Source: Candidatus Sulfopaludibacter sp. SbA3 (GTDB lineage: Bacteria > Acidobacteriota > Terriglobia > 20CM-2-55-15). Taken from it: a stretch of DNA of 34,381 bases. The notes under the pieces are model-generated. The model was not told where the DNA came from and searched no databases. It saw nothing but the letters and a program-made list of their open reading frames with translations. The stretch is from the NCBI GenBank assembly GCA_945865815.1, contig CAMBFR010000036.1, forward strand, positions 1-34,381. The letters run 5' to 3'. This document shows, in pieces, positions 11,924 through 34,295 of this stretch; within the stretch, counting starts at the first letter, position 1, and each line of letters begins with the position of its first letter. Both the position numbers and the translations under genes were made by a program.

Positions 11924-14578
11924 TTACTGCGCAGGCGGGTTCCAGTTCTGAATGAGCGTGATCGGGGAGGAGGCGTCGTCCAGGACCGTGTTGATCAGGA
12001 AGCGGCCGTCGCGCGTGACGTCGTACTGCCGGCCCTGGTTATTGTCCGCGCCGCCGCCGAAAATCCGGGTTGGAAACAGCGCCACCGGCGCGCCCGGCTC
12101 GATCGTGGTTGCCGTGGCCGCGACCGGCGCGGCCATCATCTCGCCATTGGGCCCGATGTAGTACAGTTCCCGGCCGTCGGACCGCCACCTCGGAAAGATG
12201 CCGCCCGCCGTGGACGCCTGCCACTGCCCGGACGCGGGACTGGCTGTCGATCCCGAAGCCGCAGCCGCCGCAAACGGCCGGATGTAGATCTCGTTGCGCC
12301 CCGATTCGTTCGACATGTACGCCACCCAGCGGCCGTCCGGCGAAAACTGGCCATTGCGTTCCTCAAAGCCGGTCTTCAGGAACACCCAGGGTTTGCGGTC
12401 CCCCTCGGTTGGGAGCACCCAGAGGTCGCGAGCCGTCTGTGGGTCGGTGCTGTTATAGAGCACGAACCGGCCGTCCGGCGACCAGCCGCTGGCGACCTTG
12501 AGTTGTAGGGACTCCACCAGAAGCTCCTCCGCTCCCGCGCCACTGGAGGGCTTTTGATAGAGGTCGCTCGGCCCCTTCCGGGGCGAGGAGAACACGATCC
12601 GGCTGCCGTCGGGGGACCAGATGGGGAAACGGTCCGGGGCCGCATCAAAGGTGAACCGGCTCGTGCGGGTTCCGTCCAGCAGCCAGATGTCGAAGAGGCC
12701 CTGCACGGTGCGCTCCACGGCCACGCGCCGGCCATCGGGAGCGATGCGGGGGTTACTGAGACTATTTTCATCCGGCGCGCCCAACGTGCCCAGCGCCTTG
12801 CCGGAGGGGTCGAACCAGGCCAGTTGCCGCCGGTTGGCGCCGCCCGCCCGGTAGGCCACAAGGCCGGACTCCGATACCGACACAGCGCTTACATTGAAGC
12901 CAGCGTCGATGGCGACCGGATCGGCCAAGGTCACCGGATCGCCGGTGAGCGCCTTCTGTTCCAGGTCCAGACGCTGGGCGACGAGCGTTCCGTCCCGCAC
13001 CCACGCGAGCCATCCCTCCATCCTCGCCGGCAACCCCGGCAGGTAGACGCCCCGCGTATCGGCCGGTGTCAACCGCTTCGTGTCTTCCGATTCCAACGAG
13101 CCCAGATAAATTCCCGCGGTTTCCGGCGTTCCTGTCGCGAAGAACAGGAATTGGCGGCCATCAGGCAGGAAGATCGGAAACTGGTGGTTTCCCTGCCGGT
13201 CCAGCGTCGTCACGGCCACCGCCTCGCCTCCGGAGGCGGCAACGCGGAACAGCGGACTTGTAGTAGTTGGCGCAAACAGGATGACGCCGTCCGCGGTCCA
13301 GGTTCCGCCCCGGCCTCTCGCTGCCGTTGCCAGTGTTTGCGGCGCGCCGCCACCGATGTCGAGCCGCTTCAGCCTGCCTTCCGCGAAGAAGCCCACCGAG
13401 CGGCTGTCGGGCGACCAGAAGGGAAAGGCCGCGCCCTCGGTTCCCGCCAGCGGCTGCGCCGTGGTGGACGCCAGGGACCGCAGCCACAGGCGCGAGGCCC
13501 CGTCGCCGGAGGCCACGAAGACGATCTGGCGGCCGTCGGGAGAGAGGGCAAAAGAAATGGGGTCGGCGGTCGCGGGGGTGTTGATCTCGACGCGCATCTC
13601 GGGCGGCGCAAGTGGCGGACGCAGCGCCACCACAACCGCGAGAATTGCAACGATGGCGAACATCGACGCGGCAATCCATGCGAGGCGTGCGCCTCGCGCG
13701 GGTGGCGCCGCCGGCGTCGCCACCGCCGGTTCCGCCAGCGCCTGTTCGATATCGATCCGCACGTCGGCGGCGTCGCGCCTCCGCTTCCTCGGATCTTTCT
13801 CCAGGCATCGCTTCAGTAATTCGGTAATCCGGCCCGACAGCTTTGGCGGCAGCTTGCTCCAGTCCGGCGCCCGCTCGATCACCCGCGCGAGAATCTCGCC
13901 CACATCGTCGCCCTCGAATGCCTGCCGCCCCGTCAGCATCTCGTACAGCACCGCGCCAAACGCGAAAATGTCGGTTCGCTTATCCACGGCCCGGCCTTTC
14001 GCCTGCTCCGGACTCATGTATGCCGCCGTTCCCAGTATCACTCCCGCTTTCGTCGCCGCCATGCTCAGCGTCGGTGAGTTCGAACTCGCCACATCCGATG
14101 CGTCCGTCTCGAAGGCCTTCGCCAGCCCGAAGTCCAGCACCTTCACGGTCCCTTCCGGCGTCACCTTCACATTCGCCGGCTTCAGGTCCCGATGCACCAC
14201 TCCCTTCTCGTGCGCCGCCTCCAGCGCGTCGCAGATCTGATTCGCAATCGCAAACGCTTCACCGGTTGGTATCGCGCCTCGCCGGATGCGTTCGGCCAGC
14301 GTCTCTCCAGGGACCAGTTCCATCACCAGGAAGTGATGCGTCCCGGACTGCTCGAACCCGTAGATCGCCGCAATATTCGGATGATTCAACGACGCCAGCA
14401 CGCGCGCTTCGCGCTCGAATCGCGCCACGCGTTCGGCGTCGTGTTTGAAGGCTTCGGGAAGGAACTTGATGGCCACACTTCGGCCCAGCTTCGAGTCGGT
14501 GGCCTGATACACATCACCCATGCCCCCGCTGCCGAGGTGTGCTGTGATTTCGTAATGTGCGAGCTTCGTTCCAATCAT
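11924..14578 (-). CDS. Transmembrane Ser/Thr protein kinase with TolB/WD40-like propeller, paralogue 2
   Basis: This 884-residue protein is paralogous to the kinase at 8463-11117. The kinase domains differ at only about 15 of 280 residues by eye, with the same catalytic VAIK, HRDLKPAN and DFG. The linker, transmembrane segment (about residues 300-320, ARLAWIAASMFAIVAILAVVVAL in sense) and propeller have diverged much more. Propeller units include FALSPDGRQIVFVAS, FWSPDSRSVGFFAE and FSPDGRWVAYMS. The start at 14578 (MIGTKLAHYE) is chosen by agreement with the paralogue. A 15-codon upstream extension to 14623 is not family-like and overlaps the conserved promoter-like box. A likely role is sensing through the propeller and signalling through the kinase, with a different ligand from its sister because the propellers differ. 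Confidence 0.92.
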   Translation of the reverse strand: MIGTKLAHYEITAHLGSGGMGDVYQATDSKLGRSVAIKFLPEAFKHDAERVARFEREARVLASLNHPNIAAIYGFEQSGTHHFLVMELVPGETLAERIRRGAIPTGEAFAIANQICDALEAAHEKGVVHRDLKPANVKVTPEGTVKVLDFGLAKAFETDASDVASSNSPTLSMAATKAGVILGTAAYMSPEQAKGRAVDKRTDIFAFGAVLYEMLTGRQAFEGDDVGEILARVIERAPDWSKLPPKLSGRITELLKRCLEKDPRKRRRDAADVRIDIEQALAEPAVATPAAPPARGARLAWIAASMFAIVAILAVVVALRPPLAPPEMRVEINTPATADPISFALSPDGRQIVFVASGDGASRLWLRSLASTTAQPLAGTEGAAFPFWSPDSRSVGFFAEGRLKRLDIGGGAPQTLATAARGRGGTWTADGVILFAPTTTSPLFRVAASGGEAVAVTTLDRQGNHQFPIFLPDGRQFLFFATGTPETAGIYLGSLESEDTKRLTPADTRGVYLPGLPARMEGWLAWVRDGTLVAQRLDLEQKALTGDPVTLADPVAIDAGFNVSAVSVSESGLVAYRAGGANRRQLAWFDPSGKALGTLGAPDENSLSNPRIAPDGRRVAVERTVQGLFDIWLLDGTRTSRFTFDAAPDRFPIWSPDGSRIVFSSPRKGPSDLYQKPSSGAGAEELLVESLQLKVASGWSPDGRFVLYNSTDPQTARDLWVLPTEGDRKPWVFLKTGFEERNGQFSPDGRWVAYMSNESGRNEIYIRPFAAAAASGSTASPASGQWQASTAGGIFPRWRSDGRELYYIGPNGEMMAAPVAATATTIEPGAPVALFPTRIFGGGADNNQGRQYDVTRDGRFLINTVLDDASSPITLIQNWNPPAQ

Positions 14579-14600
14579 AGATGTGAAGAAAATCCGAGGG

Positions 14601-14616
14601 CGGATTCTATCAAATA
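14601..14616 (-). promoter_or_regulatory. Conserved box upstream of kinase paralogue 2, candidate -10 region
   Basis: The 16 bases are identical to 11136-11151 (minus strand TATTTGATAGAATCCG) and lie 22 bases upstream of the start codon, although the flanking DNA differs between the two genes. TAGAAT is the probable -10 core. It suggests that both kinases share a promoter class. Confidence 0.45.
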
Positions 14617-14665
14617 ACCGCAAGTCATTTACGTATTTGGGCTATTTGAGTAACAACGGACCTGG

Positions 14666-19866: not shown

Positions 19867-20844
19867 ATGAATCGAACACTGCGTTTTTCAGTGCCCTGCC
19901 TGATGCTGTCGGTCGCCATCTCGGGTTTTGCGCAGGCGCCGGCGCCCGCAAAGCCGGATTCTGCGAAGGTCAAGGCGTACGTCGACGAGGCAAAGAAGAT
20001 CGGCGGCACACAGTGGGCCGCTGCCGCCAACTACTTCTGCACACCGGGCCGGGAGCCGAATTCCCCGACAGCCCCGGAGGTCCAGCCTACCAAGGTCTTT
20101 GACAACCTTTACTTCGTGGGCGACCAGGGAACCGTCATCTACGCGCTGACCACGACAGAAGGGATCATATTGATCGATTCGGGTTATGCGAATAAGGTCG
20201 AGCCCATTGTTGTTCCGGGATTGAGAAAACTCGGGTTGGATCCGGCCGAGGTCAAATACGTGCTCGTCGGACATGCCCACGGGGATCACTTTGGCGGCTC
20301 CACCTACTTCCAGGACCGGCATGGCGCGAAGGTTGGTCTCGGCGCCAGGGACTGGGACGAGATCGACAAGATGGCGCCCCCAACACAACCGAATGCCGCG
20401 AAGCCTCCGAAGCGCGACCTTGTCTTGACGAACGGCCAGGTGGTTCGCCTGGGAGACGCCTCGGTAACGATTGCGGACATCCCCGGACATACGCCCGGAG
20501 GCATTGGTTTCATTTTCCCCGTAAAGGACGGAAACCGGACCCGCATGGCCGCGATGAACGGCGCAACGATTCTGCTGCTCGACAATCCAAGACTGGCGCC
20601 CGCGACACTGCAGCAATACGCGACGTCCATCGAGAACTTCAAGGAAGTGACGAAACGGATGAAGGTTGAGGTGGAAGTTCAAAACCATCCGCTGTTCGAT
20701 GACACGTTCGAGAAGGCCGCGAAACTTGCAACGCGGAAGGCTGGAGACCCGAATCCGTTTGTAGTCGGCGAGGCCGGTTATCAGACGTTTCTGAATGTCA
20801 TTTCGGAGTGCATCAAGGCGCACCAGGCGCGCATGGAGAACTAA
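19867..20844 (+). CDS. Exported subclass B3-like metallo-beta-lactamase-fold hydrolase
   Basis: This 325-residue protein has a signal peptide (residues 1-22, ...ISGFAQA). The metal motif HAHGDH covers His136, His138, Asp140 and His141. GHTPG provides His208 and NHPLFDD provides His274, which is the full ligand set of subclass B3 enzymes (His116/118/196, Asp120, His121, His263). Other matches are NLYFVGDQGTVIYALTT and GIILIDSGY. It could be a genuine beta-lactamase or another exported hydrolase of the same fold; no substrate can be assigned. GAGG precedes ATG 19867 and a TAGAAT box lies at 19831-19836, so it may have its own promoter in the 44-base gap after ridA. The DinB gene follows after 17 bases. 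Confidence 0.88.
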   Translation: MNRTLRFSVPCLMLSVAISGFAQAPAPAKPDSAKVKAYVDEAKKIGGTQWAAAANYFCTPGREPNSPTAPEVQPTKVFDNLYFVGDQGTVIYALTTTEGIILIDSGYANKVEPIVVPGLRKLGLDPAEVKYVLVGHAHGDHFGGSTYFQDRHGAKVGLGARDWDEIDKMAPPTQPNAAKPPKRDLVLTNGQVVRLGDASVTIADIPGHTPGGIGFIFPVKDGNRTRMAAMNGATILLLDNPRLAPATLQQYATSIENFKEVTKRMKVEVEVQNHPLFDDTFEKAAKLATRKAGDPNPFVVGEAGYQTFLNVISECIKAHQARMEN

Positions 20845-24053: not shown

Positions 24054-24758
24054 TTAGCTCCGCAGCCAGGTCATCAGCGCCGCGGAAATTTCCCTGGGGC
24101 GTTCCATAGTGCACATGTGGCCGCAGTTTTCGATGACGACGAGGTTGCTGTTCGGAATCAGGGCCGCGATCTCTTCGTGTTGAGACAGCGTGCTCCAGGC
24201 ATCTTCCCGGCCACACAGAACCATCGCCGGACATTGGATGCGGGAAAGTACGGGAGCGCCGTCGGGCCGTTCGAGCAGGGCCTTGATCTGGGCGGCAAAA
24301 ATGGCGGGTGTCTTGCGGGCGATCATGCCCACGATGGACTCGATCAGCGGCGCGTCGGACAGCCGATCGGGGTGCACCATCCCTTGCACCCACTGGAGGC
24401 CCATCGCGCGCATTCCTTCCGTTCTCGCCTTTTCCAGCAGCGCGAAACGGCCGGCCCGCTCGAGTTTGGCGGCTTCGCCGGCAGGGAGCGGCTTGTATCC
24501 GGTATCGAGCAGCGCCAGTTTCGTCACACGCTCCGGAGCCCGGCGTATTACTTCAACGGCCACGCGGCCGCCCATCGAGTGGCCGGCCAACGCGAATCGC
24601 GCCGGGGCGCGATCGAGCAATGCCTCGGCCATTTTTTCAAGCGAGTCGAGCGAGCCATGATCCGGTATCTGGACTGTACCGGCTGCTCGAAAGGCCCCGG
24701 CCTGGTGCGCCCAGACTTCGGCGTCGCAAACCAGGCCGGGAACGAGCACTATTTCCAT
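24054..24758 (-). CDS. Alpha/beta hydrolase (PcaD-like), candidate lactonase of the ligJ operon
   Basis: This 234-residue alpha/beta hydrolase opens with IVLVPGLVCDAEVW (oxyanion region). The nucleophile elbow is AGHSMGG, the acid is in CGREDAWS, and the catalytic His is in NCGHMCTMERP. This is the plain fold of enol-lactonases such as PcaD and of small esterases. The start ATG 24758 overlaps the upstream MetE-like gene's last codons by ten bases. The longer frame to 24851 lies within that gene and is not family-like. Because it is the third gene after ligJ, and the only lactonase-type enzyme near a lig pathway that lacks LigI, a role in opening 2-pyrone-4,6-dicarboxylate is possible. This is inference only. 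Confidence 0.85.
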   Translation of the reverse strand: MEIVLVPGLVCDAEVWAHQAGAFRAAGTVQIPDHGSLDSLEKMAEALLDRAPARFALAGHSMGGRVAVEVIRRAPERVTKLALLDTGYKPLPAGEAAKLERAGRFALLEKARTEGMRAMGLQWVQGMVHPDRLSDAPLIESIVGMIARKTPAIFAAQIKALLERPDGAPVLSRIQCPAMVLCGREDAWSTLSQHEEIAALIPNSNLVVIENCGHMCTMERPREISAALMTWLRS

Positions 24759-25834
24759 ACTTCGCGGACGGTTTCGGCAACGCGGCGCAGCTTGGCGTCC
24801 TGTTCCTGCAGCGTGAGTAAATTTCCGGCCAGGGTCGAAGCGAAGCCGCACTGAGGACTGAGCGCCAGGCGCTCCAGCGGAATGTAGCTGGTCGCTTCCT
24901 TGATTCGCCCCACAAGAGACTCCTTGGTCTCAAGCGCCGATTTCTTCGTGGTGATCAATCCCAGCACGACCGTCCGGTCGTTCGGCACATGCTTCAAGGG
25001 GTCAAAGCCACCGGAGCGGGCGTCGTCGAACTCCAGCAGGAAACGCTGGAACCGCGTCCGGCTGAAAACCGCGGCAATCGGAGCGTAATCTCCACTCGCA
25101 TAGAACTTGCTTTGATTGTTGCCTCGGCAGATGTGGAGACCGAAAGTGATGCCGGGATGATTGCCGATCACGGCATTATCAAGTTCGATACATCGGTCGA
25201 GAAGGCGATCGGGGTCGTTTCCACGCTTTCGATAGCCCTCGCGGATCTCGGGATCGAGCAGGGCCGCGTACTGCGGAGCATCGACCTGAATGTAGGTACA
25301 ACCGAGTTTGACCAACTCTTCAACTTCTTCGCGAAGAATGTTCACGACGTCGCCCAGATACGCGTCGATCGTGGGGTAGGCGCCTTTTGATTTTTCAGCC
25401 TCATAGTACGCCGCGGTCTGCTGCGCGCTGAGAATCGTTACTTTCGCCGGGCGATCGGTGCGCGCGCGCACGTACGTAAACTCTTCGGCGCACATGTGGC
25501 GAATGCGCCGCAACTTGGAAACAACGACGGGACGGGTCTGCACCATCTCGTTTCCCTGCTCGTCGTGAAAAGGAAGCGCCCATCCGCCGGTCTTGTCGTA
25601 GCCTTCGACGGAATCCGGCAGATGTCCGAAGAACGCGTAACGCCGCATCTCTCCGTCGGTAACGACGTCTAGGCCGGCCTTCACATGAGCGTCAATGGCC
25701 TCGTTGACGGCCCGGTCTTCGATTTTCTTGAAATCCGCATGAGTGAGAGCGCCTGAGTCGTGGCGCTGGCGCGCTTCCTTTAAGTATTCCGGACGCAAAA
25801 GACTTCCAACAACATCGCTGCGAAAGTTAGACAT
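24749..25834 (-). CDS. MetE C-terminal-like (cobalamin-independent) methyltransferase
   Basis: This 361-residue protein is a single barrel of the UROD/MetE-like class, equal to the catalytic C-terminal half of cobalamin-independent methionine synthase. The zinc ligands are visible: HICRGN (His and Cys), Glu in LLEFDDARSG and Cys in LSPQCGF. Other matches are DVVTDGEMRR and YIQVDAPQYA. The N-terminal folate-binding duplicate domain of full MetE is absent, as in archaeal MetE-like proteins that use other methyl donors. AGGAG lies 10 bases before ATG 25834. It starts 17 bases after ligJ. Placement in an aromatic-degradation operon suggests that it handles methyl groups from methoxy-aromatics such as vanillate; this is inferred, not shown. 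Confidence 0.87.
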   Translation of the reverse strand: MSNFRSDVVGSLLRPEYLKEARQRHDSGALTHADFKKIEDRAVNEAIDAHVKAGLDVVTDGEMRRYAFFGHLPDSVEGYDKTGGWALPFHDEQGNEMVQTRPVVVSKLRRIRHMCAEEFTYVRARTDRPAKVTILSAQQTAAYYEAEKSKGAYPTIDAYLGDVVNILREEVEELVKLGCTYIQVDAPQYAALLDPEIREGYRKRGNDPDRLLDRCIELDNAVIGNHPGITFGLHICRGNNQSKFYASGDYAPIAAVFSRTRFQRFLLEFDDARSGGFDPLKHVPNDRTVVLGLITTKKSALETKESLVGRIKEATSYIPLERLALSPQCGFASTLAGNLLTLQEQDAKLRRVAETVREVWK

Positions 25835-25851
25835 AAAAAATGAACTCCTGA

Positions 25852-26871
25852 TTAGGTTGGGATTTTCTTATTCATCCTCGGATAGACCTTGCGTGCATTG
25901 CCTTCAAAGATCTTCTGCTTGTCGGCGGCGCTGATCGACTTGTTATTGTCGATGTACTGCTTCGTGTCGTCGTAAAACTGGCCGGACTCGGGATCGAGGC
26001 CGCGGACGGCGCCGACCATCTCCGATCCGAACAGGATGTTATCGGCGGGAATGATTTTGAGAAGCAGGTCGATTCCAGCCTGGTGGTATACGCACGTGTC
26101 GAAAAACACGTTGTTCCGGATCATATCGCTCAACAGCGGGCGTTTCATATCCTGCGCAAGGCCGCGATAGCGTCCCCAGTGGTAAGGCACCGCGCCGCCG
26201 CCGTGCGGAATGATGAATCGCAGCCCCGGAAAATCCTTGAAAAGGTCGGCCGTAATGAACTGCATGAATGCGGTCGTGTCGGCGTTGATGTAATACGCTC
26301 CGGTGGTATGGAACGCGGGCACGCACGAGCCGCTGACGTGGATCATTGCGGGAACATCCAGCTCGACCATCTTTTCGTAGAACGGATACCAGTACTTGTC
26401 CGTGAGCGGTGGCGCGGTCCAGTGCCCGCCTGAAGGATCCGGATTCAGATTGCACCCGATAAAACCATACTCATTGACGCAGCGCTCGAGTTCCGCGATC
26501 GAGTTCGACGGCGGCAGCCCCGGCGTCTGCGGGAGCTGGCACACACCGATGAAATTCCGCGGATAGAGCGTGCAAATGCGATGGATCAGGTCGTTGCAGT
26601 GCTGGGTCCAGTGCAGGCTGGTGGTGGCGTCGCCTACGTGATGCCCCATACCGGACGCGCGCGGGGAAAAGATCGTCAAGTCGGCTCCCCGCTCCCGCTG
26701 AAGCTTGAGCTGGGCGCCTTCGACGCTCTGGCGGAGTTCGTCATCGCTGATGCCGAGCGAGCCCTTTGACGCAACATTCGAGGGATTCTTCAACCCTGTG
26801 ATCTGGCTGTCACGGTAGTCCTGAAGTTGCTTCGGCGCTGTCGTGTAGTGTCCGTGGCAATCGATAATCAT
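25852..26871 (-). CDS. ligJ: 4-oxalomesaconate hydratase
   Basis: This 339-residue amidohydrolase-superfamily protein closely resembles LigJ of Sphingobium. The segments MIIDCHGHYTTAPK (HxH metal pair), RGADLTIFSPRASGM, GCNLNPDPSGGHW, PAMIHVSGSC, NADTTAFMQFITADLFKDFP, IPHGGGAVPYHWGRYRGLAQ and GNARKVYPR follow the LigJ pattern as I recall it. LigJ hydrates 4-oxalomesaconate to 4-carboxy-4-hydroxy-2-oxoadipate in the protocatechuate 4,5-cleavage and gallate routes. Length is normal. It is the first gene of the minus-strand unit with the MetE-like and hydrolase genes, and is divergent from ligC. No good Shine-Dalgarno is visible before ATG 26871. A decarboxylase of the ACMSD type is the alternative but fits less well. 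Confidence 0.9.
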   Translation of the reverse strand: MIIDCHGHYTTAPKQLQDYRDSQITGLKNPSNVASKGSLGISDDELRQSVEGAQLKLQRERGADLTIFSPRASGMGHHVGDATTSLHWTQHCNDLIHRICTLYPRNFIGVCQLPQTPGLPPSNSIAELERCVNEYGFIGCNLNPDPSGGHWTAPPLTDKYWYPFYEKMVELDVPAMIHVSGSCVPAFHTTGAYYINADTTAFMQFITADLFKDFPGLRFIIPHGGGAVPYHWGRYRGLAQDMKRPLLSDMIRNNVFFDTCVYHQAGIDLLLKIIPADNILFGSEMVGAVRGLDPESGQFYDDTKQYIDNNKSISAADKQKIFEGNARKVYPRMNKKIPT

Positions 26872-26972
26872 AGGCCGATGATGCTACCAAAAAACGGACA
26901 AAATGGGGCATGATCTGTGAGCGCAGTCTATAGATAGAAGCTGTGAATGAATCGCAGCCGCGAACTTTTCAA

Positions 26973-27136
26973 ATGTCGAATGTCCCATGTGCAATGTCCA
27001 ATGTATTTGTCAAACGACCCGCCAACCCAATCACCCAATCCTTGCACAATGAACCATTAGTCACTGCGTCAGTTAGTAATTGGGACTTTTGACAAGTACA
27101 TTGCACATCGCACATGGGACATCTGACATTCGACAT
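26973..27136. repeat. Long imperfect inverted repeat in the ligJ-ligC intergenic region
   Basis: The left arm begins ATGTCGAATGTCCCATGTGC at 26973. The right arm, read on the minus strand from 27136, begins ATGTCGAATGTCAGATGTCC, and both arms continue through TGCAATGT and TTGTCAAA. The right arm has two extra ATGT-containing units. The arms enclose a unique centre of about 60 bases. The element fills most of the 296-base divergent intergenic region, so it could affect both promoters. It looks like a dispersed palindromic element, but only one copy is in the window. Confidence 0.7.
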
Positions 27137-27167
27137 ATCTAATTCATAAAAATTGCTGGAGGTCGTA

Positions 27168-28112
27168 ATGAAGATCTGCATGGTGGGAAACGGCGCGTTC
27201 GCCAAGAAACATCTGGACGGCCTGGCTCGCATCAAAGGCGCTGAGGTGATCAGCATCGTGGGCCGCGTTCCCGAAACGACACAGGTAGTCGCAAAAAAAT
27301 ATGGCATTCCGCATAGCACGACCATGCTGGAAGAAGCACTGGCGCAGCCGGGACTTGACGCTGTCATTCTGACGTCGCCGACCCAGGTTCACGCCGCCCA
27401 GGCCATCCAGGTCATGCGGGCCGGAAAGCACGTGGAAATCGAAATCCCGATTTCGGACACGCTTGCGGATGCCGAACGCATCCACGCCGTGCAAATGGAG
27501 ACCGGATTGGTGGCAATGGGAGGTCACACGCGACGTTTCAATCCCAGCCACCAGTGGATTCACAAGAAGATCAAAGCCGGCGAACTGAAACTTCAACACC
27601 TGGTCGTCCAGACGTTTTTCTTCCGACGGACCAATATGAACGCCGCGGGCCAGCCCCGGAGCTGGACGGACCATCTGCTCTGGCACCATGCCTGCCATAC
27701 GGTGGATCTGTTCCAGTACCAGTCCGGTGAAACCGCTTCCCAGGCGCGCGCGCTTCAGGGACCGATGCACCCGGAGCTTGGCATTGCGATGGATATGAGC
27801 ATCGGGATGAGAGTGCCTTCGGGCGCGGTCTGTACGCTCGCGCTGTCGTTCAACAACAATGGTCCGCTTGGAACGTGGTTCCGTTACATCTGCGACAACG
27901 GCACCTACGTTGCGCGTTACGACGAACTCCTCGATGGTAATGACAAGCCGGTGGATGTCTCGAAGGTGGATGTCTCGATGGACGGAATCGAGTTACAGGA
28001 CCGGGAATTCATTTCGGCGATCCAGGAAAGGCGCGAGCCCAATTCCAGCGTCGCGCAGGTGTTGCCCGCAATGCGCACGCTCGATCGGCTGGAAAAGTCA
28101 CTGGGAACGTAG
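27168..28112 (+). CDS. ligC: 4-carboxy-2-hydroxymuconate-6-semialdehyde dehydrogenase
   Basis: This 314-residue Gfo/Idh/MocA-family oxidoreductase closely resembles LigC (315 residues in Sphingobium). The Rossmann start is MKICMVGNGAFAKKHLDGL. VILTSPTQVHAAQAI, GGHTRRFNPSHQWIH, FFFRRTNMNAAGQPRSWTD, LLWHHACHTVDLF, HPELGIAMDMS, RYICDNGTYVARYD and IELQDREFI match the LigC pattern and set it apart from generic sugar dehydrogenases. It oxidises CHMS, the ring-cleavage product of protocatechuate, with NAD(P)+ to 2-pyrone-4,6-dicarboxylate. ATG 27168 has TGGAGG five bases upstream, which overrules a start five codons earlier. It is divergent from ligJ. A 22-bp piece of its 3' end recurs at 31504-31525. 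Confidence 0.92.
   Translation: MKICMVGNGAFAKKHLDGLARIKGAEVISIVGRVPETTQVVAKKYGIPHSTTMLEEALAQPGLDAVILTSPTQVHAAQAIQVMRAGKHVEIEIPISDTLADAERIHAVQMETGLVAMGGHTRRFNPSHQWIHKKIKAGELKLQHLVVQTFFFRRTNMNAAGQPRSWTDHLLWHHACHTVDLFQYQSGETASQARALQGPMHPELGIAMDMSIGMRVPSGAVCTLALSFNNNGPLGTWFRYICDNGTYVARYDELLDGNDKPVDVSKVDVSMDGIELQDREFISAIQERREPNSSVAQVLPAMRTLDRLEKSLGT
28084..28105 (+). repeat. 22-bp direct repeat, unit 1 (inside the ligC 3' end)
   Basis: This 22-base stretch, coding for the RLEKSLG tail of LigC, recurs exactly at 31504-31525 in the same orientation. The flanking bases differ on both sides. It marks one border of the roughly 3.4-kb segment between the copies. Confidence 0.8.
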
Positions 28113-28232
28113 CGGAATTCGCAGCTTTAAAATCGCGTTATCGCCGAAAAGCGGACCAATTCCGCGGCCTCGCATCGAAGACTGAATAGCTTCGGGATGG
28201 TGATGCATTTGCGATATTCTGCGAGTGCGCTT

Positions 28233-28793
28233 ATGGCAATCGAAATCTCAAAGAGGCTTTTTACGGTTCACGATTATCACCGAATGGTCGGCGCAGGCAT
28301 CCTGTCTGAAGACGATCGCGTGGAACTCATTCGCGGAGAAGTTCTCGCGATGAGTCCTATCGGGCCTCGTCATAGCGCAGCGGTACTCCGCGCCACCCAG
28401 GCACTGGTGAGAATTGCCGGGGATCGGGCGATCGTCGGCGTGCAGGGTTCAGTTCGCCTGGATGAGTACGACGAACTACAGCCCGACATCTACTTGCTAC
28501 GGCCCAAGGACGATTTCTATGCCTCAGGGCATGCGGGCCCGGCGGACATTTTCCTGATTATCGAAATGGCGGACTCTTCGCTCGACTACGATCGGACGAT
28601 CAAACTGGGCCTCTACGCGGAAACTGGTGTGCCGGAGTATTGGGTGGCGGATATACAGAGTGAATGCCTGCTCGCCTATTCGGAGCTTCACGAAGGCGCC
28701 TATCGCGCGACTCGCGAATTTCGGCGTGGTAGTTCGATCGCGCCACAGTTTCTTCCCGAATGTCCAATCCCGGTCGACGCTCTCCTGCCCTAA
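28233..28793 (+). CDS. Uma2-family PD-(D/E)XK nuclease-like protein
   Basis: This 186-residue protein has the Uma2 pattern: KRLFTVHDYHRMVGAGILSE, DDRVELIRGEVLAMSPIG, RHSAAVLRATQAL, ELQPDIYLL and PADIFLIIEMADSSLDYDRTIK, then YAETGVPEYWVADI. The Asp and the Glu of these strands with the following Lys correspond to the restriction-endonuclease-like active site. Uma2 proteins occur in large numbers in cyanobacteria, acidobacteria and other environmental phyla. Their role is uncertain, and many are thought to be mobile. I start at ATG 28233 because family members begin a few residues before KRLFTV; ATG 28197 is possible. It lies inside the segment that separates ligC from ligK. Confidence 0.87.
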   Translation: MAIEISKRLFTVHDYHRMVGAGILSEDDRVELIRGEVLAMSPIGPRHSAAVLRATQALVRIAGDRAIVGVQGSVRLDEYDELQPDIYLLRPKDDFYASGHAGPADIFLIIEMADSSLDYDRTIKLGLYAETGVPEYWVADIQSECLLAYSELHEGAYRATREFRRGSSIAPQFLPECPIPVDALLP

Positions 28794-28813
28794 CGCGCTC
28801 CCGTCTTTGCGAT

Positions 28814-28848
28814 GAATTCACTTCTCCCACTTCCACGAGGCGCGACTG
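28814..28848 (-). pseudogene. Short remnant related to the exported unknown gene at 31518-32246
   Basis: GAATTC followed by TTCTCCCACTTCCAC and GCGCG (28814-28848) aligns with 31593-31628, part of the exported-protein gene, with one single-base indel. Translated on the minus strand the fragment gives SRLVEVGEVN, compared with PRFVEVGESEF in the intact gene. Only about 35 bases are recognisable. It fills part of the gap between Uma2 and the exchanger gene. Confidence 0.45.
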
Positions 28849-28894
28849 TCCACCAAGAGCGACCTCGACCATTCATCGATGGCGGAACGGCACA

Positions 28895-29890
28895 ATGACA
28901 ACGTGGATTCAGTTCGCTATGTGCACGGCGGTCATCCTATATGCAGGAGCCAAGCTTTCCCGTTACGGCGACATCATTGCTGAGAAAACGGGACTGGGCA
29001 GGACATGGATCGGAGTCGTGCTGCTGGCGTCGGTGACGTCGCTGCCCGAATTGATTACGGGAATCAGCTCTGTAGCACTGGTTGGCGCGCCGGATATTGC
29101 CGCTGGCGATATTCTGGGCAGTTGTATGTTCAATATTCTTATCATCGCGCTACTGGATCTGATTGGCGGGCCGTCTCCGCTTTCAGCCAGGGCTCACCAA
29201 GGGCACGTTCTCACGGCTGGCATGGGAATCTTCCTCCTGGGCCTCGTCACCATCAGCCTTCATCTGGGACCGCAGATGCCGTCTGTCGGCTGGGTCGGGA
29301 TTCACAGCGTCGCTTTGATCGTCCTGTATCTGGGTGCAATGAGGTTGGTACTCGCTTATGAGAAGCGCCGGGTTGCGGAATTTGTGGATCTGGTCGAACA
29401 CCCTGGATATGGCCGGATCTCAGCGAGCCGCGCTTACACGATGTACGCCCTGAACGCTGCGTTTATTGTCGCCGCCGCTACTTACCTTCCCTATCTCGGC
29501 GCAGAGATTGCGCGAAGCACCGGCCTGGGGCAGGGCTTTGTCGGAACTACACTGATTGCGGCGTCAACATCTCTGCCGGAAATTGTTGTTTCCCTGGCTG
29601 CCTTGAAGATGGGTGCAGTCGATATGGCATTTGGAAATTTGTTCGGCAGCAATCTGTTCGACATGGCGATCCTGGGCATTGATGATGTGTTTTACACTAA
29701 CGGCGTTCTGACAGCTCATGTCTCACCCAGTCACCAAATCGCCGCGGTTGCGGCTATGACAATGACCGCCGTTGCTGTGGTCGGTCTGACTTATCGAGCT
29801 AGTAGAAAAACGCTTCTGCTTGCATGGGACTCCTGGGCAATCGTGGCGGTATACGTTCTGGCAACGGTGGCACTCTATCTCGTACGATAA
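28895..29890 (+). CDS. Sodium/calcium exchanger family (CaCA) membrane protein
   Basis: This 331-residue protein has about ten transmembrane segments and the two inverted alpha-repeats of CaCA exchangers. These are LLASVTSLPELITGISS with GSCMFNILIIALLDLIGG in the first half, and IAASTSLPEIVVSLAAL with FGNLFGSNLFDMAILGIDD in the second. The acidic TSLPE residues and the G(S/N)xxFN/D segments coordinate ions. It is expected to export calcium in exchange for sodium or protons, as in YrbG-type bacterial proteins. I start at ATG 28895 (MTTWIQF), where the first membrane helix begins. The frame to 28760 adds a basic, non-membrane stretch that overlaps Uma2. It is convergent with nhaA, with a 7-base gap. 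Confidence 0.88.
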   Translation: MTTWIQFAMCTAVILYAGAKLSRYGDIIAEKTGLGRTWIGVVLLASVTSLPELITGISSVALVGAPDIAAGDILGSCMFNILIIALLDLIGGPSPLSARAHQGHVLTAGMGIFLLGLVTISLHLGPQMPSVGWVGIHSVALIVLYLGAMRLVLAYEKRRVAEFVDLVEHPGYGRISASRAYTMYALNAAFIVAAATYLPYLGAEIARSTGLGQGFVGTTLIAASTSLPEIVVSLAALKMGAVDMAFGNLFGSNLFDMAILGIDDVFYTNGVLTAHVSPSHQIAAVAAMTMTAVAVVGLTYRASRKTLLLAWDSWAIVAVYVLATVALYLVR

Positions 29891-29897
29891 AATCTCA

Positions 29898-31316
29898 CTA
29901 ACGCGAAGTGGAAGCCTCCGCTTCCGCCTCGGTCATCGCAACACCCGGACCGTTTCCAACCTTCAGTATTCGATAACCGGCAAAAAGCGATATCACGCCG
30001 GCCAAACCCGAGCCACAGAGAATCGCAAGTTTCGCTGTTTCGAGCAACGGCCCCGGAGGAAACGCAAGCTGCGCGATAAAAAGCGCCATTGTGAAACCAA
30101 TGCCCCCTACGATTCCTACGATACTGACGTGGGACCACTGCACGCCGCCCGGCAGTGTGGCAGCCCGCGAGCGGACGGCCAGCCAGGACACGGCCAGAAT
30201 ACCGAGCGGTTTGCCAACCGTCAGGCCAATCGCCACGCCCAGAAAAACCCACAGGGCGTCTCCCTCAAAGGAGATCTGGCCCATCGGAACCCCAGAGTTG
30301 GCGAATGCGAACAACGGCATGATGCCGAAAGCGACCCAGCCGTGCAGGAGATGCTGGAGTCTTTCGACGGGAGATACTGCTTCGCGATTGGCGATTTGCA
30401 GCGTGTCGAGGTGCGGCAGTAGCACGCGGTCATCTTGTATGCCCTTCGAGCGAAGGGATTGAACGCCGGCTTCCGTCTGATCGAGGAATCTGGCGGCTCC
30501 GTACCAGGCCCTCGCCGGAGTCATGAAACCCACAATCACGCCGGCAAGTGTCGGATGGATTCCCCCGAAGTAAGCTCCGGCCCAGACTATTATTGCCGGT
30601 AAGACATACGCCAAAGGCGAACGAACGCCAAGGATCTGCATCACGAATGTGACCGCGATTCCCAGCCCAAGAATGAGAAAGCCCAAGGCGGCCAACCCCG
30701 TCGAGTAGAAGACAGCAATCACAAGAATGGCTCCGACATCGTCGATTACCGCCAGCGCCAACAGCAAAATGCGCAGCGCCGGGGCCACGCGTTTTCCCAG
30801 CAATGCCAGCGCTCCGACTGCAAAAGCGATATCCGTTGCCATCGGAACGGCCCAGCCGGAGGCGGATGTGCGGCCGGCGTTCAAAGCCAGGAAAATCATC
30901 GCGGGAACCAGCATCCCTCCCAGCGCGGCTGCTAATGGCAGAGCAGCGCGGCGGACCTCACTGAGTTCGCCACCGTGAATCTCGCGGCGAATCTCCAGGC
31001 CCACGACAAAGAAGAAAACCGTCATCAGTCCATCGTTAATCCAGAAATGGATATCGCGCTCAAAGACGAAGCTTCCAAGCGTTATACCGATGGGTGTGTG
31101 CCAAAGATTGACGTAGGCCGTCCGCCAGGGGGAATTGGCCCACACGAGCGCTGCAATTGCAGCGATCATCAATACGATGCCGCTGGCTGCCTCGATGGCG
31201 AGAAAGCGCTCCACCGGAGCAAGCATGCGTTGCACGCCCTTACGTGCGGGCAACCACGCGCCAGGAGGGTTGGAATTTGCAGGATCAGGAAACTTAGTGA
31301 GACTTTTTTCGGCCAC
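29898..31316 (-). CDS. nhaA: Na+/H+ antiporter NhaA
   Basis: This 472-residue protein exchanges internal sodium for external protons. NhaA motifs are clear: FLAIEAASGIVLM, HFWINDGLMTVFFFVVGLEI, ATDIAFAVGALALLG (assembly motif TDxAFA) and LALAVIDDVGAILVIA, with the paired Asp-Asp of the ion site corresponding to Asp163/Asp164 of E. coli NhaA. The C-terminal half includes IMPLFAFANSGVPMG. It is longer than E. coli NhaA (388 residues) because of a hydrophilic N-terminal stretch of about 30 residues and an internal loop around residues 290-320. The start is GTG 31316 with AGGT five bases before it. It is convergent with the CaCA gene, so both ion exchangers sit together. Confidence 0.93.
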   Translation of the reverse strand: MAEKSLTKFPDPANSNPPGAWLPARKGVQRMLAPVERFLAIEAASGIVLMIAAIAALVWANSPWRTAYVNLWHTPIGITLGSFVFERDIHFWINDGLMTVFFFVVGLEIRREIHGGELSEVRRAALPLAAALGGMLVPAMIFLALNAGRTSASGWAVPMATDIAFAVGALALLGKRVAPALRILLLALAVIDDVGAILVIAVFYSTGLAALGFLILGLGIAVTFVMQILGVRSPLAYVLPAIIVWAGAYFGGIHPTLAGVIVGFMTPARAWYGAARFLDQTEAGVQSLRSKGIQDDRVLLPHLDTLQIANREAVSPVERLQHLLHGWVAFGIMPLFAFANSGVPMGQISFEGDALWVFLGVAIGLTVGKPLGILAVSWLAVRSRAATLPGGVQWSHVSIVGIVGGIGFTMALFIAQLAFPPGPLLETAKLAILCGSGLAGVISLFAGYRILKVGNGPGVAMTEAEAEASTSR

Positions 31317-31372
31317 GCGACCTCATCGCGCTGACGCACGATTTACGGTGGCGGCCCGACCATCCGATTGCC

Positions 31373-31393
31373 TGCGGTGACATCTTCACCGCA
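31373..31393. promoter_or_regulatory. Perfect hairpin upstream of nhaA
   Basis: TGCGGTGA-CATCT-TCACCGCA forms an 8-bp perfect inverted repeat 57 bases upstream of the nhaA start codon. It has no T tract on either strand, so it is more likely an operator or leader hairpin than a terminator. The rest of the 201-base gap holds only the 22-bp ligC-derived repeat, with nothing else recognised. Confidence 0.35.
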
Positions 31394-31503
31394 CCCTTAG
31401 ACATCATTCTTCGCGTGTCCGTATCCCGCGTCAACCCCATTCGGAACAGGGTCGTGGACTACTCTCAGCCTCAGCCGAGTGGCCTGTGGGCAACTCCAAA
31501 CCT

Positions 31504-31525
31504 ATCGGCTGGAAAAGTCACTGGG
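31504..31525 (+). repeat. 22-bp direct repeat, unit 2 (orphan ligC tail)
   Basis: This is an exact copy of 28084-28105 outside any ligC gene. It overlaps the last codons and stop (31518-31520, minus strand) of the exported unknown gene, so the 3' end of that gene was built from ligC-derived DNA or recombined with it. Confidence 0.8.
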
Positions 31526-32246
31526 GAGCCGAGCAGTACTCGAGGGTGGGCGTCACCGATTGAATCTGGATGTCGCCGCCCCTCGGGATCACGAATTCGC
31601 TTTCTCCCACTTCCACAAAGCGCGGCTCGCCGCCCTCCGCCGGCGCCCAGTCGAACGTGTATCCCAGCGCCGTCCACGGATAGGTCGGAGCCACACCGAA
31701 GGAAAAGTAGTACTGGCGATAGAACCAGTTCCGGTAGCCGGCAGGGACGGACTCCGCCGGCGGTTCCACGCCACACGTCCCTGTCACAACCGAAGGACTC
31801 GCGCACGGACGGAACAGATTCTTCGTCTTCGCCGCGTCTTTGACCTCCAGTTCGACGAATGCGGTCTTGTTATTGCCCGGCGGCAATCCCAGCCGCTGCT
31901 CCAGTCTCAAGGTAAGCTCGCCAATACTTGCCGCGCGGGACGCGGCAAAGGCGCGGCAGAACTCCCGCAGCTTCGGAACAACGGTTACCCACATATCGGA
32001 CGGAGCCTTCCTGAGCCAGGCCCCGGTTCCAGGATCTTTCAGCCGGTTGACCTGATCGGAGCGAACCCAGGTGACAACTCGGACCGGGCTCTTCGCATCG
32101 ATGACAATAAGAGAGTTGGAGACCTCATCCAGCGTCCGCACGAGGGCATCGGCTACAGCGGCAACGTAGTTGTCGATCGGCGCCTGCGCAAACACGGCGC
32201 CATAGGCAGAAACGGCAAGAAACAACGACAAGAAGCAATGAATCAT
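31518..32246 (-). CDS. Exported protein of unknown function
   Basis: This 242-residue protein begins with a good signal peptide (MIHCFLSLFLAVSAYGAVFAQ) at ATG 32246. The frame to 32462 adds a non-homogeneous stretch that includes the ligK promoter area and is rejected. The mature part has VADALVRTLDEVSNSLIVID, a long middle segment with basic and aromatic residues, and a C-terminal region rich in Tyr/Trp/Phe (YRNWFYRQYYFSFG, YPWTALGYTFDWAP), suggesting a beta-rich fold. Cys residues (FCRAF, FRPC, TGTCG, EYC) could form periplasmic disulfides. I recognise no family. The last codons overlap the ligC-derived 22-bp repeat, so the natural C-terminus may be altered. Confidence 0.65.
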   Translation of the reverse strand: MIHCFLSLFLAVSAYGAVFAQAPIDNYVAAVADALVRTLDEVSNSLIVIDAKSPVRVVTWVRSDQVNRLKDPGTGAWLRKAPSDMWVTVVPKLREFCRAFAASRAASIGELTLRLEQRLGLPPGNNKTAFVELEVKDAAKTKNLFRPCASPSVVTGTCGVEPPAESVPAGYRNWFYRQYYFSFGVAPTYPWTALGYTFDWAPAEGGEPRFVEVGESEFVIPRGGDIQIQSVTPTLEYCSAPQ

Positions 32247-32292
32247 GGTGGTTGTGCATTCTATCTCAAGGGTCCGGACACCCACAAAAGCC

Positions 32293-32322
32293 TTGACAGT
32301 CCTGATTCTCGGATCCCATACT
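32293..32322 (+). promoter_or_regulatory. Candidate sigma70-like promoter of the ligK-ligBA operon
   Basis: A consensus TTGACA (32293-32298) is followed after 18 bases by CATACT (32317-32322), a four-of-six match to the -10 consensus. It would leave a leader of about 100 bases before ligK ATG 32432. It lies upstream of the divergent exported-protein gene and outside its chosen coding region. Confidence 0.5.
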
Positions 32323-32431
32323 CCGAATTCGCTACGCCGATTTGAGCCTTCGTAGAGGGATACCATGACCACACAAACACAGCCGCAAAAGGCCATACGT
32401 GTTCCCGATAGAGCCTGAGGAATAAACAAGT

Positions 32432-33115
32432 ATGAAACCCACGATCGTAAAGCGAATTCCAAGGGCCGATGCCGCGGCCGTCAAGACGCTCGGCGAACTC
32501 GGCGTGGCCACGGTTCACGAAGCGCAAGGCCGGATCGGACTGATGAAGCCCTACATGCGGCCCATCTATCCGACCGCAAAGACGTCGGGCAACGCCATTA
32601 CCGTCTCGTGCGCTCCGGGTGATAACCTGATGATCCACGCCGCGCTGGAATTCGTTCAGCAGGGAGACATCCTGGTCGTTGTAACGACATCGGAATCCAC
32701 GGACGGGATGTTCGGGGATTTACTGGGTGTTTCGTGCCAGGCGCGTGGCGTAGTTGGTCTTATTATTGAGGCTGGAGTTCGCGACGTGGCGGACCTGACG
32801 ACAATGGACTTCCCCGTGTGGTCGAAGGCGATCTCGGCGCAGGGCACGGTCAAGGACACTCCGGGATCGGTAAACATTCCGATCGTTTGCGCCGGCGTCA
32901 GCATTCGTCCCGGAGACGTCATTGTTGCCGACGTGGACGGGGTTTGTGTTGTCGAGCGGCAGGCTGCTACAGAAATCGCGCGGCTTGGAAACGAGCGTGT
33001 CGCGAAGGAAGCAAAGTCGCGGGAACGGCTCCGGGCGGGCGAACTGGGATTGGATTTTTACGGATTGCGCGCGAAGATCACTGAACTCGGAATCCGTTAC
33101 GTGGATGAAGAATAA
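32432..33115 (+). CDS. ligK: 4-carboxy-4-hydroxy-2-oxoadipate aldolase
   Basis: This 227-residue RraA-like protein has the pattern of class II HMG/CHA aldolases (LigK, GalC, ProA): ELGVATVHEAQGRIGLM, TVSCAPGDNLMIHAAL, GLIIEAGVRD (catalytic Arg and metal-binding Asp) and GDVIVADVDGVCVV. It cleaves CHA to pyruvate and oxaloacetate with a divalent metal, and it can also decarboxylate oxaloacetate. GAGG lies 11 bases before ATG 32432. The next gene starts ten bases after its stop. Together with LigJ, LigC and the dioxygenase here, it marks the protocatechuate 4,5-cleavage pathway. A plain RraA regulator is unlikely because of this context and the longer C-terminus. Confidence 0.92.
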   Translation: MKPTIVKRIPRADAAAVKTLGELGVATVHEAQGRIGLMKPYMRPIYPTAKTSGNAITVSCAPGDNLMIHAALEFVQQGDILVVVTTSESTDGMFGDLLGVSCQARGVVGLIIEAGVRDVADLTTMDFPVWSKAISAQGTVKDTPGSVNIPIVCAGVSIRPGDVIVADVDGVCVVERQAATEIARLGNERVAKEAKSRERLRAGELGLDFYGLRAKITELGIRYVDEE

Positions 33116-33125
33116 GGAGTAGATC

Positions 33126-34295
33126 ATGGGCGAAATAGTTGCAGCATTTGGCGTGTGTCACGCGCCGCAGTTGATCTGGCGGCCACCCGACGAAAAGCCG
33201 GAAATGATGGATGCGAGTATTGCGGCGATGCGCGCGCTCGGGAAAGTTCTCGACGAAACCAAGCCGGATGCCATCATTTTCCTCGGCAGCGACCACCTGG
33301 AAACCTATTCCCTGAACTGCGTTCCGACTTTCGCGCTCGTTTCCGGAACCCGTGCAATCTCGCACTTCGGCGGCAAGGTATACGACCTGCCGATTCATCG
33401 CGAACTGGCCGAAGATCTGCTCGAAAAACTGATTCGCGCCGACTTCGACATCGCATATTCCGAATTCGCCGAGCTCGGCCACACGTTCGCGACTCCCTTT
33501 GAATATGTGCTCGAAGGACGCGACATTCCCATTGTTCCCTTCCTGACGAACGTTTACCTGCCGCCCCTGCCGACAATGCGGCGTTGCGCGGCGATGGGAA
33601 GAGAAATCCGGAAAATCGTCGAGTCGCGGAAGGAGAGAGTGTGCCTTCTCGCCAGCGGCGGCATGTCGCACTATCCGGGAACATCGAAGTACCACTACCC
33701 CGAATACGGGTTCGACCACTGGATGATTGCCCAGCTGGAGCTTGGCAACTTTGACGCGATTCTGAACCTCACGCCCGAACAACTCGATGAGACGGGAAAT
33801 ACGGAAATGCTCAACTGGGCGCCCATGCTGGGAGCCCTTGGATCCGTGCCGGGCGAATTGCTGCAGTACACGCCCACGTGGCATCACGGCCACGGATACA
33901 TGCGATTCCTTCCTCAGCGTGAGAGAAAGAATCCCGTGACCGAAGTATTAAAGGACTACGGCGGATTCAATTTCAAGAATCAGGGTTTCGAGTTTTATGT
34001 TCATCCGCCGGCTTCGGCATACGACCTGAACCGGCTTCTGTTTGAAGTTCGCCACGATTCCGGACTGCGGGAGAGGATCATGAAGGATCCTGAGGCAGTC
34101 GGAGCGGAATACGGACTCGAGGGCCAGCAGCGCAAATCCATCCGGGCCCTGGTTGACGCGACCACCGCGAAGGTTGTCAGCGAATACGTCAAGCCCTTGG
34201 CCGATGCCGGCGCCCATCCTCTGCAGGCGCTCATGTGCCTCCATACGATTGCCTCGGAAAGCCGCCGGAAGCTTCAGGAATCCCATACCAAGTAA
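33126..34295 (+). CDS. Extradiol ring-cleavage dioxygenase, LigB-LigA fusion (protocatechuate 4,5- or gallate dioxygenase)
   Basis: This 389-residue protein joins two domains. Residues about 1-285 are the catalytic LigB (beta) type, with iron ligands His12 in FGVCHAPQL and His57 in FLGSDHLE, as in Sphingobium LigB, plus ELGHTFATPFEY, SGGMSHYPGT and NWAPMLGALG. Residues about 295-380 match the LigA (alpha) subunit: YDLNRLLFEVRHDSGLRERI, then MKDPEAVGAEYGL and a helical tail with ALMCLHTIA. Fused beta-alpha enzymes are known for gallate dioxygenases (GalA, DesB), whereas classical LigAB uses two genes. The presence of ligC, which is needed for protocatechuate but not gallate, favours protocatechuate or dual use. 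AAGGAG overlaps the ligK stop. Confidence 0.9.
   Translation: MGEIVAAFGVCHAPQLIWRPPDEKPEMMDASIAAMRALGKVLDETKPDAIIFLGSDHLETYSLNCVPTFALVSGTRAISHFGGKVYDLPIHRELAEDLLEKLIRADFDIAYSEFAELGHTFATPFEYVLEGRDIPIVPFLTNVYLPPLPTMRRCAAMGREIRKIVESRKERVCLLASGGMSHYPGTSKYHYPEYGFDHWMIAQLELGNFDAILNLTPEQLDETGNTEMLNWAPMLGALGSVPGELLQYTPTWHHGHGYMRFLPQRERKNPVTEVLKDYGGFNFKNQGFEFYVHPPASAYDLNRLLFEVRHDSGLRERIMKDPEAVGAEYGLEGQQRKSIRALVDATTAKVVSEYVKPLADAGAHPLQALMCLHTIASESRRKLQESHTK

Follow-up and report, generated by a model that had tools for sequence, protein, structure and literature searches.

The window analysed here, a stretch of 34,381 nucleotides that makes up the whole of contig C36 of Candidatus Sulfopaludibacter sp. 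SbA3, carries genes for LigC, LigJ, LigK and a fused LigB-LigA dioxygenase (LigBA), which would make up the lower part of a pathway for aerobic breakdown of lignin acids in an Acidobacteriota genome of the gp5 type. The genome (4.34 Mb, 98% complete) falls in the same family as metagenome-assembled genomes (MAGs) titled 'Acidobacteria bacterium gp5'. The locus represents a known pathway in a form specific to the lineage, with a new enzyme assignment: DUF6282 is proposed as a candidate hydrolase of 2-pyrone-4,6-dicarboxylate (PDC) in relatives, in place of LigI, and the fusion is placed in a separate clade. Both of these points are new here. In its joint form, the proposal is that operon-type DUF6282 is a second, non-orthologous PDC hydrolase family (in Acidobacteriota, Thermus and probably others) that replaces LigI, and that the LigBA fusions of Acidobacteriota and Chloroflexota form a third lineage of 4,5-dioxygenases of the protocatechuate type, next to LigAB and GalA/DesB. 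We place this just short of an even chance, with restraint because six of the 11 LigC-positive genomes in our comparison, that of SbA3 included, lack an operon-type DUF6282.

LigC, LigJ and LigK, named in the original prediction, gave strong matches to characterised enzymes, and the catalytic residues that were checked are kept. The ligC product (27168-28112, plus strand), a putative 4-carboxy-2-hydroxymuconate-6-semialdehyde (CHMS) dehydrogenase of the Gfo/Idh/MocA type, matched PmdC (PDB 9azo) with 453 bits, compared to 58 bits for the second-best PDB match, and PF19858 with 311 bits. Its HHACH motif at residue 173 and an Asp five residues upstream align with H177/H178/H181/D172 of PmdC, for which a histidine trio and an aspartate are described (PMC11489326). 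By similarity and catalytic residues the protein is assigned as LigC/PmdC. The ligJ product (25852-26871, minus strand), of the amidohydrolase family, is assigned as LigJ, a 4-oxalomesaconate/2-keto-4-carboxy-3-hexenedioate (KCH) hydratase, by its similarity to PDB chains named 4-oxalomesaconate hydratase (535 bits for 2gwg, 496 bits for 6dxq) and by H6, H8, H178 and E284, at positions that we take to be the metal ligands of LigJ. The ligK product (32432-33115, plus strand) is assigned as LigK, the 4-carboxy-4-hydroxy-2-oxoadipate aldolase, by curated equivalog cut-off; it scored over both curated cut-offs (314.3 vs 304.5 for TIGR02798 and 346.9 vs 179 for NF006731) and matched PDB 3noj with 235.6 bits.

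The split of the locus and the divergence of ligJ and ligC were also as first described, with an intergenic gap of 296 bp between ligJ and ligC and 4.3 kb of other genes between ligC and ligK. The contig ends 86 bp past the end of ligBA. A lower pathway of the protocatechuate 4,5-cleavage type in an Acidobacteriota genome is supported by these gene identities; the term 'complete set' is not, as the PDC step is without an assigned gene. Six open reading frames lie at the stated positions. The earlier account overlooked an alpha/beta-hydrolase gene (abH), a MetE-like gene, DUF6282 in relatives and two canonical LigA+LigB pairs elsewhere in the genome. Among 386 evenly drawn genomes, 3 had LigC, and by this count the pathway looks patchy in Acidobacteriota.

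The ligBA gene (33126-34295, plus strand) begins 10 bp after ligK and encodes a fused class III extradiol dioxygenase with a LigB-like domain (residues 1-265; 111 bits against PF02900, over the Pfam cut-off) and a LigA-like C-terminal domain. H12, H57, H119, H182 and E227 are invariant in all 40 aligned sequences. Pfam did not detect the LigA-like C-terminus at 1e-3; in single profile-profile comparisons these 120 residues matched a LigA+GalA profile (96.9%, E 1.4e-10, 55 columns) and a LigA-only profile (94.0%, E 1.4e-7, 54 columns). The fusion is real, as predicted, but it belongs to a distant clade apart from LigAB. Scores against the specific LigB, gallate-dioxygenase and MhpB models were 57-88 bits, far under the cut-offs (66.8 vs 317 for the LigB model NF009903). 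In a midpoint-rooted tree of 41 rows (20 of the 40 fusion sequences and 21 references, with long branches flagged), the fusion rows grouped together (97/99) and apart from the group of canonical LigB and GalA (100/100). By sequence, the fusion is placed in a separate clade outside LigAB and the gallate dioxygenases and is a probable protocatechuate 4,5-dioxygenase of that clade.

The structural model of the fusion (pLDDT 89.8, pTM 0.88) gave DesB as the first Foldseek match (E 1.4e-19), where an rmsd of 18 Å reflects two domains placed differently; a fold search with the whole model tests the N-terminal domain. VIA-align gave Z 32.4 for DesB (2.0 Å over 258 residues) and Z 31.3 for LigB (3.0 Å over 269). 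The protein shares with DesB/GalA the B-A order of the fusion, the fold and conserved iron and catalytic positions, but identity over the aligned domain is only 24%. An assignment as gallate dioxygenase was rejected: the score was 66.7 against a cut-off of 412, the protein lies outside the GalA clade, and Thr13 and Thr267, which bind the carboxylate in DesB (PMC3962378), are not kept, Ala13 and His254 standing in their place.

A fused dioxygenase is not new as such. DesB is one, and for Pseudarthrobacter a protocatechuate 4,5-dioxygenase fused into a single subunit has been described (PMC8431788); ring-cleaving dioxygenases of SAR202 Chloroflexi have already been linked to homologues in terrestrial Acidobacteria (PMC6123686). 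The PcaA/PcmA enzymes of Pseudarthrobacter and Arthrobacter keyseri resemble the window protein in being single chains whose genes share an operon with those for LigJ, LigK and LigC. They differ in that they group with canonical LigB, have the domain order A then B (PMC8431788) and are accompanied by LigI in their own operon.

Co-occurrence was counted in a panel of 61 genomes, that of SbA3 and 60 relatives. Strong matches to the fusion (E 1e-41 or better) were present in 11 of them, and LigC was present in exactly those 11 (Fisher p 2e-12, uncorrected for kinship). The fusion search, which detects the canonical LigB genes of SbA3 itself, found no canonical LigB in G004 (92% complete) or G008 (81% complete), so that the fusion is the sole LigA-bearing candidate there for feeding LigC. 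In G010, a LigM gene directly follows the fusion on the same strand; its product shares 63% identity with G007 LigM, and the latter matched the structure of a vanillate/3-O-methylgallate O-demethylase with 602 bits. This gene order makes a lignin-derived substrate plausible, and the lignin-derived aromatic catabolism originally suggested stands to that extent, the substrate of the fusion being one that we infer. No LigM was seen in the stretches of the SbA3 genome that were examined, and no genome-wide search for LigM was made. Together, the co-occurrence with LigC, the two genomes without a canonical LigB match and the G010 gene order point to protocatechuate as the substrate.

Several observations weigh against a protocatechuate assignment. 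No characterised dioxygenase is close to the fusion, the two DesB threonines are missing from it, and its likeness to LigA covers the first half of the C-terminal domain, the second half being unalignable, so that the substrate is not readable from the sequence. In addition, two canonical LigA+LigB pairs elsewhere in the SbA3 genome, on C59 (L283:2954-4236) and C40 (L282:7910-9304), could make CHMS instead. Each scored over curated cut-offs, and their LigB proteins were placed with canonical LigB (100/99) and Azospirillum LigB (99/97), respectively. With these pairs and a LigB-like protein encoded on C115, the fusion is not the sole ring-cleavage candidate in the organism. One of the pairs is divergent from a LysR-type regulator gene and the other lies between cytochrome oxidase genes and a radical-SAM gene. 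The C115 protein (L281:5691-6758, 356 residues) has counterparts of 355-361 residues in relatives (L042:14458-15522, L270:7661-8743 and L274:55-1122), and the gene is found directly behind ligJ in G004, G007 and G010; it would be an extradiol dioxygenase, perhaps one for 3-O-methylgallate. A second cluster in G048 (L284:3551-7636) encodes LigJ-like (46%), MetE-like (63%) and LigB-like proteins and an RraA-type aldolase (35% to LigK). This set suggests that a parallel pathway exists.

In the pathway that we propose, the fused LigBA would open protocatechuate, and possibly gallate or 3-O-methylgallate too, and LigC would oxidise the ring-cleavage product to the pyrone PDC. By a second route, 3-O-methylgallate would yield the methyl ester 4-carboxy-2-hydroxy-6-methoxy-6-oxohexa-2,4-dienoate (CHMOD), to be hydrolysed by the abH product. 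The routes would meet at 4-oxalomesaconate, which LigJ would hydrate and LigK would split to pyruvate and oxaloacetate, and the MetE-like protein would take up the methyl groups released by O-demethylation. LigI would have been replaced in the lineage, the PDC step being carried out in many relatives by DUF6282 of the same operon. In SbA3, where the operon is broken up and operon-type DUF6282 is absent, the step might fall to a divergent LigI-like amidohydrolase encoded on C73 or to a gene missing from the assembly, or the pathway might avoid it. We consider this account as a whole rather probable. Its gene identities, gene neighbourhoods, predicted folds and trees, and the lack of a convincing LigI, are shown by the analysis, and all of its substrates and activities are inferred.

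The absence of LigI from the window was borne out, none being encoded on contig C36. When the LigI query was run against the assembly, no convincing LigI was found; the best homologue and only match was the C73 protein (41% identity over nearly the full length, E 4.7e-60; 38% in the alignment), with altered motifs, and an Amidohydro_2 search of the genome returned five genes.

Fusion loci were compared in a set of 81, the window and the 80 loci listed from an alignment scan of 84,980 species genomes, with a neighbourhood of 10 kb around each fusion. By title, seven of the 80 listed loci are from Chloroflexota (SAR202, Dehalococcoidia), one is from Bordetella and the rest are acidobacterial. 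The Bordetella locus (L139, CALQCC020000007.1) lies on a MAG contig under the title Bordetella parapertussis, which looks wrong. Among the 81 listed loci, ligK was present in 42, DUF6282 in 33 (32 at 150 bits), ligC in 27, ligJ in 18 (15 at 300 bits), GalB in 18 and DUF1932 in 18; LigI and GalD were found in none, while the same LigI query did detect LigI-like genes in L316 and L319. The order DUF6282-ligC-ligJ-ligK-ligBA occurred in six, and 17 of the 18 listed GalB-bearing loci had DUF6282. In the 32 listed DUF6282 loci, LigC (13) and a short-chain dehydrogenase/reductase (SDR) gene (10) were never found together, as if either makes the pyrone.

Operon-type DUF6282, defined by at least 68% identity to the L116 copy (every other copy had 40% or less), was present in 5 of the 11 LigC-positive genomes and in none of the 50 LigC-negative ones. 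The SbA3 genome has no DUF6282 (PF19799) of the operon type; by tblastn its two copies are 35% and 29% identical to that type, and they show 38% and 32% identity to the nearest operon copy. In a tree of 13 of the 22 sequences of alignment A4 and 19 others, they fell in another part, in other subfamilies. Both were considered for the PDC step and set aside, neither being of the operon type.

Taken together, the fusion loci and two plasmids look as though LigI had been exchanged for DUF6282. On a plasmid of Thermus oshimai, a DUF6282 gene (50% identical) lies between a vicinal oxygen chelate (VOC)-type dioxygenase gene and GalB-LigK, with a DUF1932-like oxidoreductase and PobA nearby and no LigI in that 18.9 kb. 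A Roseomonas plasmid carries a VOC-type dioxygenase (66% identical), LigK, DUF1932 and a LigI-like gene (45%), and gave no DUF6282 match. The VOC-type enzyme (L316 and L300), 66% identical between Roseomonas and Thermus and found with LigK in both, is annotated as catechol 2,3-dioxygenase and is perhaps a type I protocatechuate dioxygenase.

The DUF6282 model (pLDDT 86.3, pTM 0.88) is a barrel, for which the first matches were 2i5g in Foldseek (E 1.5e-8) and 1bf6 in VIA-align (Z 21.2, 3.1 Å over 244 residues). The predicted amidohydrolase-type barrel makes operon-type DUF6282 a candidate PDC hydrolase. Asp26, His30, Lys60, His62, Asn96, His184, His209, Glu233 and Asp266 do not vary among 32 diverse members, and Arg69 is a mark of the operon type together with the Thermus and Alicyclobacillus proteins. 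The DUF6282 profile gave no match in the PDB with E of 1 or below. A literature search under the name DUF6282 found nothing, which does not in itself show absence from print. Some results argue against a role in PDC hydrolysis. The best fold matches are other metal-dependent enzymes of the amidohydrolase superfamily, and in Foldseek the PDC hydrolase entries 2ffi and 4d8l came at ranks 21 and 29 (LigI at rank 29, E 6.5e-5). Neither LigC nor the SDR gene was present in 9 of the 32 listed DUF6282 loci, and a DUF6282-GalB-LigK cluster in G342 is without LigC.

Behind ligJ, the first gene of a tight operon, lie a MetE-like gene and abH. The MetE-like gene (24749-25834, minus strand), 17 bp from ligJ, encodes a MetE-like methyltransferase with the catalytic domain of cobalamin-independent methionine synthase (PF01717); it scored 263.7 bits against NF005085, under the cut-off of 313, and a MetE-like gene (at least 200 bits) was near the fusion in 5 of the 81 listed loci, the window counted. 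It overlaps by 10 nt with abH (24054-24758, minus strand), which encodes a PcaD/MenH-type alpha/beta-hydrolase with Ser-Asp-His triad motifs at 59, 183 and 211. Its best NCBIfam models were PcaD and PcaDC, both under cut-off. As a query, abH was used minus its first residue (24057-24755). At 51% identity or more, abH was found in 6 of the 61 genomes, all of them LigC-positive (0 of 50 LigC-negative; p 8e-6, uncorrected for kinship).

The abH gene or a relative of it follows LigM in G007 and precedes it in Sphingobium TomTYG64. In two Roseomonas species it comes after LigA-LigB, in Sphingobium fuliginis LigA-LigB are close by, and it is found near GalD in G048 and behind a tannase-family gene in G013. 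The company of LigM, LigAB and GalD makes abH a candidate CHMOD esterase of 3-O-methylgallate catabolism, bypassing PDC. The CHMOD esterases DesC and MgaC are alpha/beta-hydrolases whose mutual identity is only 13% (PMC12314914). From its fold, triad and neighbours, abH probably encodes a CHMOD methylesterase, set beside DesC and MgaC by fold and context only. A relative in Bosea that adjoins homoprotocatechuate genes speaks against this function; the record for Niveispirillum carries no annotation. A simple replacement of LigI by DUF6282 or abH was rejected, since three LigC-positive genomes, G002, G005 and G009, lack both operon-type DUF6282 and a strong abH match.

Other assignments of the PDC step were weighed. 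The C73 amidohydrolase might be the PDC hydrolase of SbA3, LigI having been relocated and diverged, not replaced; we regard this as possible, with the balance somewhat against it. Over its 41% identity to LigI the protein keeps the metal-site residues and also R124 and R217, two positions that, like R130, we take to be important in LigI. The variant, with RFAFLPH for RFNFLKR of LigI and GTDRPRPN for GTDWPHPN, occurs in five of the six LigC-positive relatives without operon-type DUF6282 (G000, G002, G005, G010 and G013) and in none of the five with it, a distribution that makes the protein a serious candidate. However, WPHPN is changed to RPRPN and R130 to His, the gene is surrounded by HMGL-like, biotin-carboxylase and enoyl-CoA hydratase genes, G001 (81% complete) has the variant without LigC, and the protein scored 174.8 against a cut-off of 500 for 4-sulfomuconolactone hydrolase. 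R130 was discarded as a decisive mark of LigI, as His is found there also in the LigI-like protein beside LigK in Roseomonas and in a G042 protein. Operon-type DUF6282 could instead act as an oxalomesaconate tautomerase or isomerase, a role that we think unlikely. The LigU/GalD step is also without a gene, GalD being absent from the listed fusion loci and PrpF-type genes present in only 6 of the 61 genomes. Nevertheless, LigU and GalD have a fold different from the barrel, the barrel with its invariant His, Asp and Lys suits hydrolysis, and in G048 operon-type DUF6282 occurs alongside a GalD with 65% identity to the Azospirillum protein.

That abH itself is a PDC lactonase replacing LigI seems quite improbable. 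PcaD is an enol-lactonase, PcaD and PcaDC were the best models (below cut-off), and abH is present in 6 of 11 LigC-positive and 0 of 50 LigC-negative genomes; but an abH relative and LigI or a LigI-like gene share the same region in both Sphingobium TomTYG64 and Roseomonas, and the usual partners, LigM or a LigAB pair, fit CHMOD hydrolysis better. We also doubt that the window serves gallate or 3-O-methylgallate, such that 4-oxalomesaconate would arise without PDC, LigI would not be needed and LigC would be a side branch. The top Foldseek match of the fusion is the gallate dioxygenase DesB, abH resembles a CHMOD esterase and has LigM and tannase genes beside it in relatives, and Pseudomonas NGC7, which is without a PDC hydrolase, degrades syringate by this route (PMC12314914). 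On the other hand, LigC accompanies the fusion in all 11 genomes and lies in the fusion operon at six listed loci, and both the model score and the tree separate the fusion from gallate dioxygenases.

The closest known systems are those of Sphingobium SYK-6 (LigABCIUJK) and the Comamonas-type pmd operons (Diaphorobacter L037, Arthrobacter keyseri L311), which have LigC, LigJ, LigK and a LigB/LigA-type dioxygenase in common with the window. Unlike these, the window cluster lacks LigI and LigU/GalD, its dioxygenase belongs to a separate B-A fusion clade, and its ligJ operon adds the MetE-like gene and abH; in relatives DUF6282 heads the operon. The CHMOD route (DesC/DesD; MgaABCD of NGC7) is similar in having an alpha/beta-hydrolase and no PDC hydrolase, and abH relatives lie near LigM or LigAB-type genes, but abH is likened to DesC and MgaC by context, not by sequence.

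PDC hydrolysis is the step by which protocatechuate carbon is committed to central metabolism, and since PDC also serves as a polymer precursor, it is of value in engineering to know which enzymes remove it. Should DUF6282 prove to be a PDC hydrolase, this would give a role to a Pfam family of unknown function, and surveys of genomes that rely on LigI would miss the pathway in Acidobacteriota. A literature search on Vicinamibacteria and protocatechuate found nothing, and absence from print is not shown by this. The gene set would tie abundant soil bacteria to guaiacyl-lignin acids, perhaps also to syringyl-lignin acids, via LigM in two relatives.

Elsewhere in the window, a metallo-beta-lactamase (MBL)-fold protein (19867-20844) scored 133.7 bits against a cut-off of 240 for subclass B3 beta-lactamases, and no resistance gene was called. 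Two long paralogues on the minus strand (8463-11117 and 11924-14623) have near-identical N-termini and by eye look like serine/threonine kinases with a propeller part.

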